Positions 4,701 to 57,125 of a stretch of 64,000 nucleotides of DNA are shown here, one piece after another. This DNA comes from Owenia fusiformis (Eukaryota > Annelida > Polychaeta > Sabellida > Oweniidae), in assembly GCA_903813345.2 (NCBI GenBank), contig CAIIXF020000011.1, positions 28,882,166-28,946,165 on the forward strand, read 5' to 3'. Each line of letters opens with the position of its first letter. Within the stretch, counting starts at the first letter, position 1. Both the position numbers and the translations under genes were made by a program. The notes under the pieces are model-generated. The model had not been told where the DNA came from and did not search any database. It worked only from the letters and a program-made list of their open reading frames with translations.

Positions 4701-7700
4701 GAAAATGCAAGATTTTCATTTTTATCCATTAGCAATAATGCATTGATCAATATTTTGACATAATTTTGTATCATTTTGAATTTCTTGTCATTCATGCATT
4801 TTACAGCATGAAAGAGAACATCTAGTAAAATAGAGATATGAACTCTTGGAATAAAAAACAAAACAATCAGACAACGATATTACACTTCTACACATTTACA
4901 ATCTATAAAGTATCTATTAAATAAATCTACCATTTGTCTCTTATGAGCACACAGTTCCAATGAGTGCACATGCAACTTATGTTGAATATGTTCTCAAGAA
5001 AACACAAAGTATAATGCATTAGTTAGGGAATACAGAAAATTTTATTCTGTTCATTGTTAAAAGAATGAAATCGTATAGCGATTGATGTCTTTGGCAATGG
5101 CCAGAATAAAATCTTTCTAAATCTTTCGTATATGTGCTAATTAAAATCTCTCTAACCCTTTTAAATTTCAACTTGGAAACCACTGTGTGCTCATTAGGAG
5201 AATATGGTATTACAAATTTTAAACATTGGGGGTTCTGTTCTTAAAACAAAGGCTTTCAGTGCTACATATAATATATGAGTCAAGGTAGTGGGGAAGGAAG
5301 TTATGATAGTCTTTAACAAATGATAGTACATACGTGTATTGTAATGGAAAGGAAGTGGGGGTCATTATCTATATTTGAGACAGATTAACTAAAGAAGAAA
5401 AGATATAAGAATAAAACAGAATCATAATCGATAGGATCATATACAGTCTACAGAAGGAGGGCTGGTCTATGTTATTGAATTTTGGCCACCATCTTGAATG
5501 ATACTAACTGCAGTTAGACTCATCCAGCTGTGGAAGTTGGAACAGTGAGTTATGAGTAGGAATAAAACAGAATCATAATCAATAGGATCATATACAGTCT
5601 ACAGAAGGAGGGCTGGTCTATGTTATGGACTTACTCCCTCCACACCAGGTTTTGGTTTTGTTTTGTCTTGCTTAGTTTTTGCAGCTATATTAGATTTTCC
5701 ACCAGCCTTATCCTTGGTCTATAAGCATGCATTAAACCAATCATAAATTTTGAACTGAGAAACGGATTTGTTTAGAAATTAACATATAAGAATAACAATT
5801 ATAATACTGCAAGATGGATCAGGGGCCTAATCTTTTCATAAATAATATGTTTGGCTTTGATAAAACTAGATAACAAATCTATCAGGAGTTCTTACATTCT
5901 GAAATATGTGAGGATCCTGACCTCAATTTAAAACAAAACAAAACAAGCATATCACCTCTGACTGTGTTATTATAAAAACCTAGCTATGCGGTAATTAACA
6001 TTAAAAAAATTAACTCCAGATGACTTTTAAAGTCATGAATGATAGATGACAACGAATGATAAAAACATTTTTTAACTTAACACAGGGTCTTTAAATTTTC
6101 TATGTACTCTACTAGGCTGCAATAATACAAATATCACGTTCTAATTTTTCCCACTTTGCCAAAATTAATACTCACTCTGTTAAGAGGTTCCTCATCTTCA
6201 GTATCTTCCTCCTCTGAATCTTCAGGGGTCACTGATACCTCACTTTCATCATCATCTTCATCATCCTCGTCTTCATCTTTCGCTGGTTTCTTATCTGCAA
6301 ATAGAGTTTCAATGATGGAACTTTTGTAACAAGAAAATATCAACTTTATTTTAAAAAACAACATTTCTTACACAAGGCATTAACATGTAAAATGTCACCA
6401 CCTAACATTTGTTACAGACATCAACCAGTAAACACTAATTAGTGCCAAACATCAACCATCAAACGCTGAAAACTGTCCACAAAAAAAGTTGGAGACTATA
6501 ACAATATGTCACCACTTGTGGTAGTGACACAACAACATCTCCAACTGGAGTTTTCATTCACCAATATCAAATGAAACAATCCGATGTAGCAAAATGCCCG
6601 AAGAGTTCAATGACTTTATTGAGGTAACTCTCTTAATTTAGGACAAATTGTACCTCAAAAGCAGCTACAATTGAATGAATTCCTCACTTAATTGATCATG
6701 ACCATGACAAATGTTAAGAAAACCTTTAAATGTAGACACCTGCACCTGCTAACACTGGTCCAAGAGGTATTCACAGTTTTATTGTACTTTGTAAGAATGC
6801 TGACTGTTTTATTCCATTGCAAGAATATAAATTCATTCTTACCATCATTTTTGATAGGAGCAAGTGTCCCTCTCTGGAATGGGTCACTTCGTTTGGCAGG
6901 AATTGGTTGAGTTTGGCCTAAAGGTGGCCCTCCTAAGGGTGGTAGTGCTCGAGAGCCACCTAGTGGTGGCAATGTGCGATTCAGCTTTAGAGGTTCCTAA
7001 ATGAATATATTGCAAACAATGTAATTCATGAAGTAAAGAGAGTTTGAGGGAATGTGTCAGTGTAAGAAGTTAATATGGTTTCAAAATTAACCAGGCTATT
7101 TTCAAATAACAGTGAGATGTGAAATTGCAAAATATACATTTATTGCACATGAAATACAATACCTTTTTAATATTCAGAGCATTTGGGTCTTACTAAATGG
7201 AATCAGTTACTTGGCTTTTCAAACTTTGCAAACTAACATAAACTGGAAAGGTAAACACTGGAAATGGGGTCTAAGGTGTTCCTCATATATGATCACATTA
7301 AGTTGAATGAAATGTTAGAATATTCCTTATATAGTAAGGTTTTATCAAGGAATAAAAGATCTGTTATTGCTAGAATTCAATCAGGTACTCTTCATCTCAA
7401 CACAGAAACTGTTCTATATGAAGGCCTTGCTGTTGAACAATTATGTGAGGAATGTAAAAATGGACATATAAAATCTGAGAAACATTTTCTTCTAGATTGC
7501 TCTTGTTACAAAGATTTGAGAAAAACAATAATCAGGCCCCTATGTTTCATGATAATCAAGATTTGTTGAAACAGCTTATTTCAAAGAAAAATTATGTAAA
7601 ACTTACAGCAAAATTCATAATATCAGCTCTTGAAAAATGACAAAAAATTGTATAAATAACACATTGTAATTATACATATGTATTTGTAACTAAGCCTGAT

Positions 7701-32696: not shown

Positions 32697-39122
<6,426 letters not shown>

Positions 39123-42712: not shown

Positions 42713-43653
42713 TGAAAAACACTTTTCTTGAAATTAAATCTGACTTTCAGTTCACATTCACAAAGCAATGCGAGAAGTTGGGATTACTCTATATACATTA
42801 AATGCATTGTTATGCATATGTTAAATTGTGTTTATTTCATATTTTCATATATATTATTTGATTCATAAATTAATAACAACATTATATACAAACAGAACTA
42901 TGTGTTTTGTTCATTTTAACATTTCTTGCTTTTAGCAAACAAAAATTTCATAAAGTATTTACAAATCTAAATTACAAGTCGTATTAGGTAAAATCAATCA
43001 TTATCCTTCAAAACAAACAAAAAATTATATTTTGAATTGACATTTCTCAGAGGCACATGTTTGCACATTTACACAGTTTTTACTAAGGATTTGAAATCAA
43101 CATTTTCAATGGTCATAAAAGGTGTCAAGCAAAATATAGTTATTGTTTGTGTTTGTGTTTGGAGGACAACTGATACCTTTCAATTAACTAATAGATTGAC
43201 CTTAACAGTAGTTCCCTCTGGAAAGTTTTTACTTTCACAACTTACAGTGTTATTAAGACATCAATTTTTGCTCACGATGACTTCCAGTAAACTTCACGCT
43301 ATTTACTAATCATACAATTATTGCATTGGTTTAAATCTAACTTTACAGAATTTTGTATAATACACAGATATAATGGCACTTCTAATATGGCAAGAAATCA
43401 AATTCATATACATGTAGAGTAAAACCTATCTAATAAGAATGCCATTGGGACCAGGCAAGTGTTCAAATTTTGAGGTTTTTAACATGGAACATGGGAGAGT
43501 TAAAAATGGGTGAAACTGTTCAGATTAGAGAGGTGCTTGTTATCAATTTACCATAGCATACAGTAGTGACAGAGGAAAAGTGGAATGAACATCAACAGAG
43601 CTATCTTTGTTTCATCCGCGGTTAGATACTTTTTCTATGAATACATGTAAATA

Positions 43654-45403
43654 CAAGGCATTAACATGACAAAATGTCACCACCTAAAACAATTTGGTCA
43701 ATTTAAAGCAAGTTGGAAAATACCTTTTGACCTTGAGGTGGTCAAAGGTCAAATCTAAAGTCAGATTTGAACTTCTGAGAACTTGTAAAGTCAAATTTGA
43801 ACTTCTGAAAAGATGTAGATGATTTTGAAAAAAAAATTTGGTCAATTTGAAGCAAGTTGAAAACAGACCTTTTTGACCTTTTTTGAACTTGAGAAGGTCA
43901 TTAAAGGTCAAATGTCAAATCTAAAGTCAGATTTGAATTTCTGAGAACATGAAGATGATTTTGAAAAAACAAATAAGTCAATTTGAATCAAGTTGAAAAT
44001 AGACCTTTTTGACCTTTTTTGACATTGAGAAGGTCATTGAAGGTCAAATGTCAAATCTAAAGTCATATTTGAATTTCTGAGAACATGTAGATGATTTTGA
44101 AAAAAAATTTTGTCAATTTGAAGCAAGTTGAAAAAAGACCTTTTTTACGTTTTTTGACTTTGAGAAGGTCATTGAAGGTCAAATGTCAAATCTAAAGTCA
44201 GATTTGAATTTCTGAGAACATGAAGATGATTTTGAAAAAAGATTTAGTCAATTTGAAGCAAGTTGAAAAAATACCTTTTTGACCTTTTTTGACTTTGAGA
44301 AGGTCATTGAAGGTCAAATGTCAAATCTAAAGTCAGATTTGAATTTCTGAGAACATGTAGATGATTTTGAAAAAAAATTTAGTCAATTTGAAGCAAGTTG
44401 AAAAAAGACCTTTTGACCTTTTTTGACTTTGAGAAGGTCATTGAAGGTCAAATGTCAAATCTAAAGTCAGATTTGAATTTCTGAGAACATGTAGATGATT
44501 TTGAAAAAAAAATTTAGTCAATTTGAAGCAAGTTGAAAAAAGACCTTTTTGACCTTTTTTGACTTTGAGAAGGTCATTGAAGCTCAAATGTCAAATCTAA
44601 AGTCAGATTTGAATTTCTGAGAACATGTAGATGATTTTGAAAAAGATTTTTAGTCAATTTGAAGCAAGTTGAAAAAAGACCTTTTTGACCTTTTTTGACT
44701 TTGAGAAGGTCATTGAAGGTCAAATGTCAAATCTTAAGTCAAATCTTAAGTCAGATTTGAATTTCTGAGAACACGTAGATTATTTTGAAAATTTTTTTTA
44801 GTCAATTTGAAGAAGGGTTGAAAACAGACCTTTTTGACCTTTTTTGACCTTGAAAGGTCATTGAAGGTCAAATCTTAAGTCAGATTTGAATTTCTGAGAA
44901 CACGTAGATGATTTTGAAAAAAAAATTTAGTCAATTTGAAGCAAGTTGAAAACAGACCTTTTTGACCTTTTTTGACCTTGAGAAGGTCATTGAAGGTCAA
45001 ATGTCAAATCTTAAGTCAGATTTGAAGGTCAAATGTCAAATCTAAAGTCAAATCTAAAGTCAGATTTGAATTTCTGAGAACATGTAGATGATTTTGAAAA
45101 AAAATTTAGTCAATGTGAAGCAAGTTGAAAAAAGACCTTTTTGACCTTGAGAAGGTCATTGAAGGTCAAATGTCAAATCTAAAGTCAGATTTGAACTTCT
45201 GAGAACATGTAGATGATTTAGAAAAAAATTGAAGTCAGTCTAAACAGTATTTGTTAAGTTATAGGAAGTTGTAAGAAATTGGTACAGACGCCGGACGCCA
45301 ACCTCCAACCACCAACCACCAACCTCCAACCACCAACCACCAACCGCCATCGCAAAAAAAACGGAGACCATAACAATATGTCACCACTTTTGGTGGTGAC
45401 ATA
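43654..45403 (+). mobile_element. Helentron/pearl-like element, copy 6, with ~135-bp tandem array core
   Basis: 5' end AAGGCATTAACATGACAAAA and 3' end GGAGACCATAACAATATG followed by the hairpin GTCACCACTTTTGGTGGTGAC bracket ten to eleven tandem units of about 135 bp (43680-45235), then an ACC/CAACC-rich linker (45285-45350). Each unit contains GAAGGTCATTGAAGGTCAAA and GTAGATGATTTTGAAAA. Lies between MEAF6 and OSTM1. Confidence 0.7.
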
Positions 45404-46237
45404 AAAACTTGTCAAATAGGTGGGATGACCCTTTGAGCAGGATTTGCAAATAACCCTTAAATACAGTGAAATTATGGATAACATTTAAGCGGACATGGCT
45501 TACACCATTGCATGATATAATGTATGTTCAGTGTATGTATAATTCGCATAAAATATTTACATTAAAATATTTCAAAAATACTGAAATGGGGAGGAATAAT
45601 ATTAAATACAACTGAACACATGAGGCAGATTCAAAACACTTTAAATCTTAAATATTTTGTTCTAAGATAAAAAAAAAGTGGAAATGCACCTCTATCTTGC
45701 ACATTGATTTCCAAGTTTGCCTTACATTTTTTTTAAATACTGTTTCGTCATGGATGCAAAATGAGGTATCCATGGCAATATATTTTTGACAAAAGTTACA
45801 GATATAGTGCAAATATAATAAATGCACTTATTACATGTTGCTAATTGTCTATTGATATGAACATTTTTATGATTAGTATTTCGGATGTCATATTTAGAGT
45901 ATCCTCACTTTTCATTTAAAATGGTATGGTTTAGTAACTCATAGACACAGTGGGTCACATCTGGGTTATCGAAATCCTGTAATTGTTAACAAATTGTAAA
46001 TCTATGTTGAGTAAATTGCTATTAAGTGCAAAAACCCAGTACATGGTCACCATCTTCTGACTGTCACATCCCACATTAAAACATTATTGCTTGAATTTGC
46101 ATACGGTACATTTATATGTACAAATATTGATATTTGGTTTTCTTAAACTAGTCAATTGCTTAATATTTAGTGATTTTCAGCATGACAACTATTTGAAATA
46201 AATACAATGTTTTATAATATTGGTTGTTAGGGTGCTT

Positions 46238-47910: not shown

Positions 47911-50900
47911 TCAATGATTTCTCAATATATGATTACTCCAAAATATGTTAAAAATAGCTCTAATCAAAGTGTCAAACTTACGCTTTATAATTTTTCTTTC
48001 TTGTTTCACACCATGTATTTTGCTGCCAATATAAAAGACTATGGGAAGGAGGCTGAAGAAGACGGTGAGGCAGATGACGGGGATCAGGTCACGAGACTTC
48101 ACCGTGCAATGGAATTGATCGCTCCACATAATTCTTGTGTAGTTCATCTAAACAGAAAAATTGTTTTAACAGTAAGCAAAATGTAATGTACAGAAGGAAA
48201 TATTACAACCCAAAATTTTGAAAAAAATGTCAGAATTTCTAGTCATTTTGGACATATTTTTTTATTTGACTTTTGATGAAAATGCCATCCCATGGGTTAG
48301 ATTCCCAAAACAAACCTTCCCTTCTCTATCTCTATGAATTCTATTCAAAGGTGGACAAGAAGTGCTGTGAAAATGAAATTCTGTTTCCTTTTTGAAAAAG
48401 GAGCAAAGCCCAGCTCTCTCTCTCTCTCTCTGTATACTTACAGCATCTACAAGGTCTACACAGACATGGTTGTGTGTCTCATGCTCTATATGGGCATAGT
48501 GCTTATTCAGCTTGTTATATGAATCAAGACATTTAGTACACACTAGGGCACCCCCTTTACTTGTGTGGTTATATGGAGATATCCCACCCTGAAAAGATAA
48601 CATCAGATAACATTGGTTTTATATTTGACCATACATAATCATATAAGGGGTAGAGAAAAATAATTGCCTGCATAAATTGTTGTCTCAGGAAATACTTAAC
48701 CCTCTTTTAAGGAAAACAGCACCCTGTCATATTTGGGCATACCACTCCTTTTACAATCAGAGTAACCTGAAAATCATCTTTTACTTGTCCCAAAACTAAG
48801 GTATCAAAGCTTTACTACAGAAATATTAAAGACTAACAGGTACTTTGTATTGAGTGATATTTTTACTGAATTCATAACAAGAGTGAGACCGAGAAATGTT
48901 TAGCTAATACTGATGTTTTCCCATTTCCAATTAATAGAAGCTCATTTAATCTGCTTAAAGACCTAATTATAGCTTACCCCTGTCACATTGGACACACATG
49001 AGGCTACTTCTTGGAAGAGTATTTCAAACTCATGAGCTCCATGTGAAGATTCCTTCTCAACTGTTCCATTCACATCCTTGTATGATGAAAAACAGCCTGG
49101 AATAACACAGTGAAATATGTTTTTTATTAAAGTATCTAACAAATTAATTTCAACATTATATTTTCTTTTATTGTTGATGTTTAATTCAAAGTTTTTGATA
49201 ACAACACACATTTTCAACTGCTGATGGCATTTTGTACATTGTCATTGTCATATTGATACATAAATCACACATACATACAACAAAACTTGTAGATGATTTG
49301 GAAAAAAATTGAAGTCAGTCTACACAGTAGAAGACCTTTGAAAGTCATTGAAGGTCAAATCTTTTTGAAGGTCAAATCTATAGTCAGATTTGAACCTTTG
49401 AGAGCTTGTAGATGATTTTGAAAAAAAATGGTCAATTTGAAGCAAGTTGAAAATAAGACCTTTTTGACCTTTGTTTAACTTTTTTTTTGACCTTGGAAAT
49501 CACTGAAGGTCAAATCTTAAATGTAAGGTCAGATTTGAACTTTTGAAAACTTGTAGATGATTTGGAAAAAAATTGAAGTCAGTCTAAACAGTATTTGTTA
49601 TTGGAAGTTTTAAGAATTTGTTACAGACGCCAATCGCCACCCACCAACCATCAACCACCAGCCACCGCCACAAAAAACAGAGACCATAACAATATGTCAC
49701 CACTTATTGGTGGTGACATAAAAATCTTGTCAACATTTCACTAAATGCAGTGATGAAATATCTTTCAACAACAGTGTTTCTTTTCTTGATTATTTGTATA
49801 TTCACTATAACTATGTGAATCCACTTAGCCTTTTATCAAATAATTAGATAGAGTATCACCTTAACAATAGTTTAAGTGAATAATTATCTGACCCTTATAG
49901 AAATTGTCAACAATTTACTACTTGAAAAACTGTACATCTCCTTCATTTTGGACCTACAATTTGTTTTAGGGTCTTTTTGAAGAGATTTTTATTTTTTGTG
50001 GGAATCTTTTTGCATTAAAATTCTGCAAGCTTAAATTAGTTTTTTTTGTTCTGTTTTTCATAACTTCAATAGTTCAAAAGATTTGCTTATGTCTTCAGGG
50101 GGTGGTTTTCACTGGCAAATGTCAAATACAGTCTGATACTTTTATTCCAAAAAATTCACAGTGATTACAATAAAAAATATAAAACATCCTTTTCGTGGTA
50201 AATTGAATATATTTAGGAGATCGAACTAAAATATAGTATTTCGGTTTTCATTATTCTCAGGGTCAGAATATTAGGACATGTCTTATCATAATTATGTAAA
50301 TTGTAATTACACATACAACGCTTAAATATGTATGTTCACCAATTTGGTAATTATTTAATTTAAAGTATTTACAGTAAAAGATTTTTTACTTAGCTGATGA
50401 TTAGCTTTAAAATGATTATCCTAAAAAAAATGGAGATCATTGAATATTTTGAAAAAAGTGGTATGTTCAATGGTTTGAATTCTATAAACTGTAAACAAAG
50501 TCAATGCTTCAGCTAGGTTATATTCGAGATCAATAACCAAGTTAATATGTGTAATGTGTGGGTCGTAGTAATGGCGGACCATGATGAATATTCGAAACAA
50601 TTTGGTGAGTTTTCATGTTCGAATCGTAATATAGACCTCAGAGCAGGGGTAATATCGTCGAATACACCCCTTGGGGCTAGGCACAAAAGCAGAAAACGTT
50701 TGTGCCTAGCCCTGCGGGGTGTATTTGACCATATAACCCTGCTTTTCTGTCTATATTTCTTAAATAAGTTTGAATGTTATAAAAAGAGAATTAAAACCCA
50801 TTTAGTTTATACCCAAAGCCTTGTTACTACTTAAGATTGTAAAAAACTTGAAATGAGTAAAAATAGTACGTTCAATTAGACGACGGTTGTTAGAAAGGTA

Positions 50901-53900
50901 ACATTCTGATATCTCTATGTTTGTAAACTAATAAATCACACAGTAGGTAAAATAAATGAAACAACAATGAGATAAAACTGGTTGAAACTATTTAAATAAT
51001 CTGACAATAATAGCTTCGATAAGAGATAAGGCTATTTTTACAATCTGTAGCTATACTTAGGAAACTTTGTAACATGAAATTCAAATTAAGCTACTGACTT
51101 ATCTTTTACTGACTTATCATTTACAAATAGACAAAATTTTAAAAATGTGTTGATTTGTAACAATTGTATACATTGTGACTTTCACAAATGACTTTGAGAA
51201 AGTTCTCATTTTTAGAGCGGGTGACTTAACATAAAGCTTTATTGAAATGTAATTACATGATGTTAAACAAAGTCCTTGCTATTTGACAAACAGATATAAT
51301 TAAAGGTATGGCTGTTTTTAAACTTTAATCAGGGCATTTCTGAAAATCAACAAGAGGCAAGAAATAACTTCATAATATTCTTAACATCCTACACTATGTG
51401 TCTCTCTGAGAATCTGGTAGTTTTATTTGACTTTGAGACATGAGTAATTTAAGTATAAAATTGTTGCTTTGATTATTGTTCCATAGTATTCTGACATCTT
51501 AATATTTTCATTTAGACCCCAAGTGTCTGTTAACCCTTCATATGCAATCCTGTGATTCCTGTGGCTATATCTCAATCAAAAAAAGTTATTGCCAAATTAA
51601 AAATAAGGACATTTGGCCCACCCTGTATATTGCCCTGTACTTACTGCTACAGTAGCCTTTAGACCACATGTCATCAACAAAAGACCATGTTTTCTTCACA
51701 ACCTGTATCCTATCTCTGCTGAGAAGAACATCTTTACATGTGGAACCTGTAGAATCTTTTATGTCATCCTGAAAAAGAAACACAGATACTAGAATTTGCA
51801 GAATTTGGGTTTTCAAAATTTTTGCAGAATTTGATTTTTTGCAGAAAACGTGATTTTTCCAGTCAACCACATCATCTCATCTCATATGTGTCACTCACCT
51901 AGACAGTCCTTAGACAGTCATCTGTCACCAGAAACTGGATTTCAAAGGAGAAATGTGAAACCTGTTTAAAATTCTCAAATTTCCCGCTTTTGTATTTCAC
52001 GATTATGTCTAATATGTCACGAAATAGTTCCGATGAAACCGCTGCTTGAAGAATTTATCGCTGAATTCAGTATTTCATGCAGAATTTGGCGCATAATTTT
52101 TTCATGCAGAATTTCTGCGCAGAATTTGCATTTTTCTCATGGAGAAAACTAGGATGTGTGAAGAAATGATTCAAGGTGATAAAAGAAAAATCAGGTATTA
52201 GAGCAAACTTTCCAACAACCTCTCTAGTTCAGTATTTTTTGTCTCACATCCATCCTTGTCATGACTTTTTATAATAAGAGAGTAGTTGCCTTTGAACATG
52301 CTTTTTCCCTGTCTAACTTATTCAAATTGTTCGAAATTCTATATGTATAGCTGGAATGTGAAATTCTCAATAAATACCATTTGATTCTCGTTGCACATGT
52401 TTTCTCCGATTTCAAGGCATTTTAAGTAACAAAAGGACCTGGACCCAAAAGTAATGAATATTTAAACTTAATAATGATATTATCCATTTTATTTTAATAT
52501 ATATGTACAAGAGTAAGTAGAAACTTAATACTGTAGCTGGAGTTTCTCAGCCTGAAAATTTTGAAAATCATACTTCTGCCAATGGTGTGTGAAAACAAAT
52601 ATAAACAAAAATTGGAGGTCATTGGTTTATTTAGGTAAGCTAACATTTAAAGTAAAGCATATCTGTTTAGAGAAATTTAAAAATGCACTACATAAGGAAT
52701 GAGAAAGGTAAGACATTTGCATGTAAACCAGATAGGAAAATATGATGATAGTGATATTCCTGAGAACATCTCAATCTTTTGCCTGTTCGATTATAACATG
52801 GGAGAAGAATTCACGCCTCCTACACTTTAAAATACCTACTTCAATAAATTCCTGAGTATTTTAGCAATTCTTTTTGTGGAGGTGAATCTCCAATCATCTG
52901 GGTTTACCGGCAGAATGAGGGCATTTTCCTTTTTCATCGAGAGAGAGGTTGGATTTAGAGGGGGAATCCCTGTATTGACTGGTGCTACAGTCTCAGCTTG
53001 GATGTACCAATAAATGGAGGAATTTGATGGTTGAAATAAGTCAAACAAGGCATGACAAAATGTCACCACCTAGTTGAAAAAGACCTTTTTGACCTTTTTT
53101 TACTCTGAGAAGGTCATTAAGGTGAAATCTCAAATCTAAAGTCAGATTTGAACTTCTGAGTACTTGTAGATAATTTTGAAAAAAATTGGTCAATTTGGAG
53201 CAAGTTGAAAAAAGACCTATTTGACCTTTTTAGACCTTGAGAAAGTAATTGTAGGTCAAATCTTAAGTCAGATTTGAACTTCAGAAAACTTGTAGATGCT
53301 TTTGAAAAAAATTGAAGTCAGTCAAAACCGCTGTCACAAAAATGGAGACCATAACAATATGTTACCACTCCTTAGCTGTGACATAATAACACACAAAAAT
53401 TGCTATCAAAAACGAAAATTTCCTCGTTCTGCCAATAAGCCCAGATGATTGGGGATTCAGCTACATAAAAAGAATGCTAAAATACTTAGGAATTTATTGA
53501 GGTAGGTATTACAACTGTAGAAGGAGTGGATCATTCTTCCATTTTGTAATCGTACAGGCAAAAGATGGTGGCCTTCCCAGGACTTAAGTGCACGATAACA
53601 TCAACCCCTTTACTGTCTTATTCACTTAGCATGTTTATAAATAAACAAATTTATATAAATATGTCCTACCTCTGCAATGGCTTTATATGCAGACTGCACG
53701 TGGACATAATCATCAATGCAGCTTTGACAGAAATGAAGAGGTCTAGCGTGACGTACACTACATTCTACAAAATTTGCTGCCGATCGTGCCATGGCTTCTA
53801 CAAATGCTAAGCATGTCTGATCTATTGCTTGCCATGGAATATATACAGAACCCTGGCCATGGCCAGAGTCAGTGTGAGCTGAATGTCCCTGTAATTCTGG

Positions 53901-54614: not shown

Positions 54615-55772
54615 ATGATTGATATATTTCCTGTGGAAATCGCGGTGATATTTTTTGCACATTAAGGGGCAACAAGGCCTGTAGAGAGAAAATAGGAGAC
54701 TTTTAACTTTTTCTGAGCTATCAAGGCAACATCTGCCTTAACATCTTCTTTGACATACCTATTTTCTTAAAATGTATGGATAAACTATCAATTTCAGCAT
54801 TAATAAGTGTAAATTCAGTTCAAAGCTTCAAAAAGGGGAAATCCGCTTTTATATTTTTAAGATCCACCCTGTTTCAAGAGGAATATCAGCTGAAATAATG
54901 TTTATCTAGGGGGTTTCTTAGTAGATATAAAAATAGATGTAAGTCTTGATGAAATAGCCAAACTTAAATATATTTTGACACTGGTCCCTGATCGTTGAAT
55001 GGCCCCTCTGCACTAATTGTTGCAACTTTAATTTCTCGTTTATTATAAGAATGTTCACCTTGAAAATTGGTGAATATATTGAAGAGATGTTCATCTTAAA
55101 CTAGAAGCAAAAATATTTGTATAAGGCGGGTACAAGTTGATATAAAATAATGAAATGTTCAGACTCACCGAAACTTCAGGATGTGTTCATAAGTAGATCG
55201 CGAAATCAATGTCAAGGACGTTTGAGTTCACGAGATCCAAACGAGATATGCAAATTTTGAACTTTGACAACACATGACCACTTGATTACCTCGGCCTTCT
55301 TCATGAATATTTCCGCTCTATTTACTATAAGTGAAGAAAATTAATCGGGATAATGATAATAAATGACTAGATCTAATAAATTCCCGCACAAATGGAATTT
55401 AGCAATACGCTTCCGTAATGTTGCTCCCGCTCCACGTGTTATTTGTTTACAAATAGACTGCCGTCACTGGCTAAATCTCGTTTATCGTGAGAATTGGCAT
55501 TGCCAAAATGGCTTGACCTAATCAATGGCTTCGCTACAAGAAGCGTCTGTACATTTTATGAATATCTTCAGTAAGAGGACAATATACGAAAAAATAATAT
55601 TGTGAGTTCTTTAAAAGGTAATCATTTTATCATTAAACAAACTTATTTGTAACATTTATACAACACCACATTTTACAATAGGTGACTTACAGTCTGAATA
55701 TTTATTCAGACGAAGGATACAGTCTAGAGGATTTCCCATGTTAAAAATAAGAGAATTTACAAGAGGCCTTAA
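54615..55772. other. Intergenic; nothing recognised
   Basis: No exon, repeat or RNA gene that I can support. Confidence 0.5.
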
Positions 55773-56779
55773 GGCGACGCTATATTAAATAATAAGTACA
55801 AAAAATGACGGCCATATTTTTTTGATAAAGACACATGTTTTTAAAATCTGTTTACCTTGTATATGAATTGTGTATCTTGACTAATGAAACATGTCAAAGT
55901 TAACATCACACATAAACGCATTTTTCCAAACTATGAATTGGAGGTGCATGGATCCCCAAAGCTAGCATGAAGAGTGCGAAGTGAGGCTAATTTTTGAAAG
56001 TTTCAAGGAGTAGCCTTGCAACAGTCACACATTTGCAAGAGTCTAAAATTTCCACAAATCATCTTACCTTTCCCAGGAACAACGAAGGAGCATGAAAATG
56101 TGCACTTCTTGCATTGTTAGAGTATAATAAACCTCAAACCATTGTAAATTCCAAATATTTCATGTCCACATTTTGTTTGCCGGAACTACTTCTAGACTTC
56201 CTGATTAATCCTCATGCAAGTTTTGTGACTACACCAAGTGGCATGGATTATCACTTGTATGTTTTATCTATTACAGTGTTATTATCATGATAGATACATG
56301 ATAGAGGCTTTATGAATGATAAACAATGGAAACATGAATGAAGATAACTCTGGACTAAAAAATAGTTCCAGGAAACAAAATGGTGGACATGAAATATTTA
56401 GAATTCACAATGGTTTGAGCTTTATTATACTCTAACAATGCAAGAAGTACACATTTTCGTGCTCCTTCGTTGTTCCTTGGTAAGGTAAGATGATTTGTGG
56501 AAATTTTAGACTCTTGCAAATGTGTGACTGTTGCAAGGCTACTCCTTGAAACTTTCAAAAATTAGCCTCACTTCGCACTCTTCATGCTAGCTTTGGGGAT
56601 CCATGCACCTCCAATTCATAGTTTGGAAAAATGCGTTTATGTGTGATGTTAACTTTGACATGTTTCATTAGTCAAGATACACAATTCATATACAAGGTAA
56701 ACAGATTTTAAAAACATGTGTCTTTATCAAAAAAATATGGCAGTCTTTTTTTGTACTTTTTATTTAATATAGCGTCGCC
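55773..56779. mobile_element. 1007-bp foldback element with ~410-bp arms, TTAA-like target
   Basis: 55773-56185 and 56371-56779 are nearly perfect inverted copies with a ~185-bp loop. Ends GGCGACGCTATATTAAATA and mirror. TTAA precedes the left end (55769-55772) and ATAA follows the right (56780-56783); a third, partial copy at 58549 is also preceded by TTAA. This suggests a piggyBac- or Kolobok-type TTAA target. No transposase seen. Confidence 0.75.
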
Positions 56780-57125
56780 ATAAATCAGTGGATGAGATTA
56801 TACAAAATGTAAAATATACAAATTTTAAGGGATATGTATCTAGACAATATTGGAAATTATGGGCTTTCAGACCACCATAATTAGGAAATGGTGATCGAAA
56901 ATCGACCTGTCTTTTATTTTTGTCCCCAACTGTAGGCAAAGGCCGATAGGAATATTTTTAAATAAAGATGTCATGGTAATCGATCTGTGTTTATTTATAG
57001 GTATTCTCTTCAGGTAATCAACGGGAGCCGAAGTGGTATTTTTAAAATCCACATTTTCTCCTAAATGCCGATCGTTCTTGTGAACAGCTCTACTGTTTGC
57101 TAAAAGACATATCCATATACATACT

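Follow-up and report, generated by a model that had tools for sequence, protein, structure and literature searches.

Genomic context

The window, a stretch of 64,000 nucleotides of Owenia fusiformis DNA, contains a NuA4 (MEAF6-type) domain match on the plus strand (36385-36522) and OSTMP1-domain matches on the minus strand (47977-48312, 48373-48573, and 53670-53813). Between these lies a complete non-autonomous Helentron (HINE), at 43653-45404 on the minus strand, with both ends identical to the ends of its family and to those of autonomous Helentrons. The domain matches on either side agree with the initial annotation, made from the sequence alone, which had placed the element between MEAF6 and OSTM1. 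An inverted repeat at 55769-56783, with 413-nt arms that are 96% complementary and 189 nt apart, is probably another mobile element.

Other copies of the family were found on the minus strand of the window. The copy at 6360-6532 has both ends but no core and contains no AGGTCA. Two older copies, at 49240-49721 (left-hand bound provisional) and 53045-53386, lie in the OSTM1 span. Neither contains an exact DR4, defined as two AGGTCA half-sites separated by a 4-bp spacer, and each carries a one-mismatch DR4 (49342 on the plus strand and 53222 on the minus strand, respectively). The earlier proposal that these copies extend the DR4 array into OSTM1 holds in part: they lie between OSTMP1 matches and have related units, but the exact motif is missing from both.

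Structure of the HINE

The canonical 5' end of the element is on the 45404 side, and the plus strand, on which it was first read, shows the element reversed. At this end, a minus-strand terminal hairpin with a 10-bp stem, ATGTCACCAC-TTTTG-GTGGTGACAT (45378-45402), comprises the canonical 5' subTIR and a complementary inverted repeat (IR). It is adjoined by a 7-bp microsatellite, (CCAACCA)n, at 45298-45349, occupying the same position as the left-flank microsatellite of Cg_HINEs (PMC7492417). Its minus-strand sequence consists of GGTTGG-type repeats, which might fold into two-layer G-quadruplexes next to the hairpin. The tandem core array spans 43786-45222, with about 10 units of ~135/136 bp; TRF gave a period of 136 bp, 9.1 copies, and 90% matches for 43786-45026. 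At the opposite end, the 3' subTIR of the minus-strand element (43674-43684, ATGTCACCACC on the plus strand) overlaps a terminal palindrome at 43667-43679, which reads TGACA-AAA-TGTCA on the plus strand and TGACA-TTT-TGTCA on the minus strand.

SubTIRs were found at both ends, with ATGTCACCACC near one and its complement at the other. The minus-strand order is ATGTCACCACC-AAAA-GTGGTGACAT, the microsatellite (45349-45298), and then the array, and 27 of 28 complete copies of the family keep the 3' palindrome intact. This order of subTIR, IR, microsatellite, repeats, and subTIR with palindrome matches the published HINE and Cg_HINE layout. It is a complete HINE and a young copy of a large family. 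The original label, Helentron-like, thus stands on firmer ground, with the structural marks of a HINE present and with autonomous Helentrons that share its ends.

A HINE would be expected to enter T-rich or TT sites and to leave the target unduplicated. The flanks around family copies are A/T-rich. A single weak empty-site candidate was found (L035 versus L059, 80% across 119 columns with a gap at the junction). Most of the other empty-site matches traced to tandemly repeated ends of the element or to a 114-bp satellite near L064, and they were discarded.

DR4 motifs within the element

Nine exact plus-strand DR4s (AGGTCA-N4-AGGTCA) lie inside the HINE. Eight have a TTGA spacer (AGGTCATTGAAGGTCA), at 44031-44046 and with further starts at 44166, 44301, 44435, 44707, 44855, 44984, and 45153, and one has a TTAA spacer (43895-43910). 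A one-base variant on the same strand, with AGCTCA as its second half, is found at 44571-44586. Two exact DR4s are on the minus strand, on the other arm of a palindrome described below: TGACCT-TTTT-TGACCT (AAAA spacer on the minus strand) at 44835-44850, and a second at 44963-44978. The initial annotation had recorded the eight intact sites, at positions 2-5 bases too low, together with the TTAA form, the one-base variant, and the opposite-strand pair, and all of these were recovered. When one mismatch was allowed, the whole window contained 20 DR4 matches, compared with a mean of 0.33 and a largest value of 2 in 100 shuffles. No exact DR4 was found in the rest of the window outside 43653-45404.

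Distribution of the family and of AGGTCA pairs in the genome

Family copies have a common left end, ACAAGGCATTAACATGACAAAATGTCACCACC, and a common right end, TATGTCACCACTTTTGGTGGTGACATAA. A search of the 498-Mb genome for the exact 23-bp core of the terminal hairpin gave 1,281 matches (657 plus and 624 minus; reversed control, 0), and exact AGGTCATTGAAGGTCA was found 10,824 times (5,393 plus and 5,431 minus; reversed control, 1). The 28 complete copies among the collected loci are 258 to 2,571 bp long and carry 0 to 16 exact plus-strand DR4s, with none in four of them. Since coreless copies (window 6360-6532 and L020) keep both family ends, movement seems not to require the core with its DR4s. 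A loop variant of the hairpin, TTATT, gave only five exact copies, and a second anchor was therefore used for locus choice.

Some copies are joined to one another. L018 contains three head-to-tail copies at 1058-2260, in 472-bp steps with a few bases at the joints. The 5' terminal hairpin plus ~25 bp is repeated two to four times in tandem, in ~48-bp steps, in L013, L016, and L080 (1130-1210, part of an autonomous copy on C11), and also at C1 9864733-9864898. The head-to-tail copies of L018 and the tandem hairpins of L013 and L016 would suit rolling-circle copying.

A genome scan for DR4 spacing, as the initial annotation had proposed, identified 20,262 DR4s with any spacer, against 113 in the reversed control. 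This was the commonest AGGTCA spacing measured. Pairs from DR0 to DR12 together numbered 51,801 (reversed control, 2,443); 39% of the pairs in this spacing range are thus DR4, and 53% of DR4s have the TTGA spacer. DR3 was found 762 times (reversed control, 445). DR6 was likewise repeat-amplified, with 9,693 occurrences against 111 in the reversed control; to our knowledge, it is not among the classical receptor spacings. Among 100 DR6 places listed, the spacer was AAATCT in 42 and AGAACT in 27, often ~477 bp apart. Given these two dominant spacers and the recurring distance, another repeat seems to be behind most DR6. DR6-bearing members of this separate repeat family were seen at C1 92450, 284931, and 3414820-3430255, among other places.

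Autonomous Helentrons sharing the family ends

The Helitron_like_N profile gave 58 genome matches, 57 of them above the cut-off. Twenty-four of the 58 Rep matches sit in open frames of at least 2,900 codons, which suggests recent activity of autonomous elements belonging to several subtypes. The published Helentron Rep signature is (V/I)ExQxRGSPHxH (PMC4067079). RGSPHxH, the Helentron form, was present in all 11 of the Rep loci examined, and nine of these have V or I in the first place of the motif.

A Helentron at C11:29198329-29210188 (L080 and L075) has exact 5' and 3' family ends around a 2,424-codon frame with a Rep domain (Rep match, C11:29204960-29205493). Its 5' end, at C11:29198329, matches the family end in 33 of 33 bases, is repeated once in tandem, and is followed by a core array that stops ~1.3 kb before the Rep frame opens. 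Its 3' end matches in 34 of 34 bases and lies ~1.2 kb past the frame stop, after a partial core unit. The possibility that this match is a stray insertion was rejected; the canonical orientation shows it to be the Helentron's own 3' end. The exact 34-base end was found in all three Helentrons of one subtype, on C11, C6, and C10 (L078, L079, L081, and L082 cover the last two). Alignments among the three have 97.5-99.7% identity and stop at the 3' end; C6 and C10 align to C11 with 97.9% over 1,031 columns and 99.7% over 917, respectively, and the C11/C10 alignment runs two bases past the 34-base end. The terminus is fixed by these alignments, since they stop there or two bases later. The 5' end is exact in C10 as well, and the C6 piece stops short of it. 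Autonomous partners with the ends of the HINE are therefore represented by C11 and C10 (both ends) and C6 (3' end).

DNA 3' of Rep was searched at seven of the 58 matches: continuously for C11, C1, and C12, from ~5.4 kb on for C2, from ~4 kb on for C5, and, for C6 and C10, over the 1.4-1.5 kb expected to contain the end. The C2 piece carries a separate complete HINE. Family ends were absent downstream of Rep in the C1 and C12 Helentrons in the continuous search, indicating that not all Helentrons here belong to the family of the HINE. Because the HINE keeps the 5' end, the array, and the 3' end and lacks the Rep gene, it looks like a deletion derivative of an autonomous Helentron.

Origin of the motif in the core unit

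The core unit contains a ~75-bp stretch rich in GACC, GGTC, and GTCA words in both orientations. GTCA and TGAC words number seven in the young unit, compared with 1.05 in shuffles, and six in the old unit, compared with 1.06. In the core unit, TTTGACCTTTTTTGACCTTGAGAAGGTCATTGAAGGTCAAA is an imperfect 41-base palindrome with 10+7 or 9+7 pairs, depending on the strand. The plus-strand DR4 is its right arm and the minus-strand DR4 its left arm, so the plus- and minus-strand motifs of the initial annotation are one palindromic feature. The DR4 itself consists of two AGGTCA words one 10-bp step apart.

Conservation of half-sites and spacing

Conservation of the DR4 was analyzed in two sets of loci, both chosen blind to the motif. 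For the young set, loci were picked by an intact terminal hairpin (27 loci and the window array; 216 units with a mean divergence of 4.7%). For the old set, they were picked by anchors outside the core (29 loci and two window copies; 80 units with a divergence of 9.3%). Except for the five TTATT-variant loci, these were the first places among the matches listed, on contig C1, and are a non-random sample. Four overlapping loci (L014, L017, L019, and L046) and L034, which is the copy near 49 kb in the window itself, were removed before counting, and in both sets matched stretches covering <60% of the model were excluded. Rare substitutions (≤5%) were compared between the 12 half-site positions and the rest of the unit. 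As units of one array are not independent, p-values are approximate.

Neither set had a significant constraint on the DR4, by rare substitutions or by indel-free frames. Rare substitutions in young units affected 42 of 2,487 half-site bases (1.69%) and 329 of 21,570 elsewhere (1.53%; 1.11x, p=0.55), and in old units 41 of 931 (4.40%) and 274 of 7,503 (3.65%; 1.21x, p=0.28). With all substitutions counted, old half-sites were changed in 98 of 931 cases (10.5%) versus 688 of 7,503 (9.2%; ratio 1.15, p=0.21). The 16-bp DR4 frame was free of indels in 199 of 216 young units (92%; median of frames 0.894, or 89%; rank 48 of 113) and in 68 of 80 old units (85%; median 0.806, or 81%; rank 43 of 114). 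The autonomous arrays, for which 37 of 44 matched stretches were kept, had no significant half-site constraint either (16/444, 3.6%, versus 177/3,897, 4.5%; p=0.475).

Some counts go against a neutral reading. All substitutions in young units were fewer in half-sites (42/2,487, 1.69%) than in the rest (1,065/21,570, 4.94%), a ratio of 0.34 with p=9e-16 for units that are non-independent. The intact 6-4-6 frame was retained in 174 of 216 young units (median 0.551, rank 9 of 113), in 27 of 80 old units (median 0.237, rank 30 of 114), and at 0.757 in autonomous units (median 0.486, rank 19 of 113). The lead of DR4 among the AGGTCA spacings measured genome-wide points the same way. The avoidance of half-sites by common-variant columns in the young set is nonetheless compatible with chance (0 of 16, the half-sites being 12 of 128 positions; P=0.186), and 5 of 36 such columns in the old set fall within them.

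Neighboring exact AGGTCA pairs at spacings of up to 14 bp in the same loci have the 4-bp spacing in 219 of 239 young and 43 of 54 old cases, a prevalence that inheritance alone explains. The refutation test set with the initial annotation, which asks for excess conservation of the half-sites or of the spacing, fell on the neutral side in young, old, and autonomous copies. Functional conservation of the DR4 was not found in any of the three kinds of unit, by tests that are blind to exaptation of a few copies. Because the pair gathers mutations at roughly the pace of the surrounding unit, the DR4 appears to be carried along passively rather than kept as a switch.

Interpretation

We consider it likely that the HINE family comes from an autonomous Helentron and that the DR4 is incidental to the core unit, multiplied with it and then decaying neutrally. 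The family would derive from a Helentron with its Rep frame between the array and the 3' end, and the Rep/helicase of autonomous copies would move the HINE by rolling-circle copying. Array expansion and transposition would have multiplied the DR4, two AGGTCA words 10 bp apart that form one arm of the imperfect palindrome. After insertion, it would decay at the rate of the remaining unit. In this way, a core repeat would have amplified a consensus hormone-receptor motif ten-thousand-fold, while selection on the motif went undetected in the units analyzed. The DR4 share of AGGTCA pairs given above calls for caution in motif-based prediction of receptor targets in Owenia.

Among the alternatives, the core array could be the Helentron's own promoter or enhancer, with host receptors at the DR4s helping to transcribe Rep and the HINEs inheriting the leftover. 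Such a role is conceivable because all three autonomous copies inspected have the array on the upstream side of their Rep frame. On the strand opposite the frame there are 10 (C11), 11 (C6, partial array), and 7 (C10) exact DR4s, compared with 4, 8, and 4 on the frame strand. The DR4 is also part of the consensus in young, old, and autonomous units, and the C11 array ends ~1.3 kb before the frame, as noted above. The half-sites are, however, not significantly constrained even in autonomous arrays, and DR4 number per array varies among the three copies, so that we regard this role as unlikely. It is the most interesting reading remaining, and one that has become directly testable. In an extended and similarly doubtful form, the array would be a hormone-responsive promoter timing transposition, while more than ten thousand HINE-borne DR4s would titrate RXR heterodimers and act as enhancers at a few genes.

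The palindrome that bears the DR4 may instead be what matters, if single-stranded DNA folds there and serves rolling-circle copying or array expansion. Folding as DNA is predicted at -12.6 kcal/mol for the young and old consensus alike, and pairs changed on both sides slightly exceed expectation (15 versus 9.7 in old units, 7 versus 3.9 in young units), with six compensatory double changes in old and two in young units. This excess was judged too small to claim covariation. Against folding, old units have lost the pairing in 142 of 972 pair cells, 19-26% of 147 near-full units are missing the columns for one repeat of the left arm, and coreless copies exist. We find this explanation improbable.

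The initial annotation had suggested a host function, in which dispersed arrays form a nuclear-receptor platform acting as decoy, enhancer, or landmark. The host has nuclear receptors, with 66 zf-C4 (nuclear-receptor DNA-binding) exon matches in the genome, and the 10,824 identical DR4s offer many sites. Two zf-C4 exon matches lie at C11:28969930-28970621, ~24 kb past the right end of the window. The premise that DR4 is preferred by TR/RXR-type dimers comes from vertebrates; oyster TR binds DR4 among others, but ranks it fifth of six (DR3 > DR2 > DR5 > DR0 > DR4 > DR1; PMC4692385), and the vertebrate rule should therefore not be transferred. Transposon-borne motifs do get bound elsewhere: Alu-borne DR2s recruit RARs in vivo, at several sites by ChIP (PMC1785376), and Arabidopsis RC/Helitrons distribute PHE1 sites, with binding and nearby-gene expression measured (PMC6914339). 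Incidental receptor binding by some HINE copies thus stays plausible, and may occur. As a host function, the platform is very unlikely: constraint after insertion was not detected in young or old copies, the old intronic copies have no exact DR4, and DR6, which is not known as a classical receptor spacing, is repeat-amplified too. The host-regulatory reading has no support beyond the motif, the conservation tests went against it, and it gains little from our analysis.

Comparison with known systems

The accessible part of the literature searched yielded no report of receptor motifs in HINE cores. In multiplying a consensus receptor motif by a mobile element, the family resembles primate Alus with their DR2 and DR4 motifs; ~50% of human consensus DR4s sit in Alus (PMC1785376). 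Unlike the Alu motifs, with RAR recruitment by ChIP, the HINE motif is known from sequence and belongs to a tandemly repeated core. Among rolling-circle elements, the RC/Helitrons of Arabidopsis likewise spread a transcription-factor motif, that of PHE1, and differ in that binding and expression were measured there (PMC6914339).

With HINE/DINE-1 elements and Helentrons (PMC4067079), the family shares subTIRs, a 3' palindrome, optional tandem repeats, an autonomous partner, and the Rep motif RGSPHxH; host, end sequences, and core unit differ. The closest parallel in layout, by which alone the two were compared, is Cg_HINE of Crassostrea gigas (PMC7492417). It has a 5' subTIR of 11-12 bp with a nearby complementary IR, a microsatellite, central tandem repeats (13 clusters, consensus 138-181 bp), and a 3' subTIR followed by a palindrome, and it forms thousands of dispersed arrays. 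No mention of nuclear receptors or AGGTCA was found in the accessible part of that paper. Its authors were unable to connect Cg_HINEs with autonomous Helentrons, whereas the satellite-bearing HINE family of Owenia is tied to an autonomous parent that shares its ends and its array.
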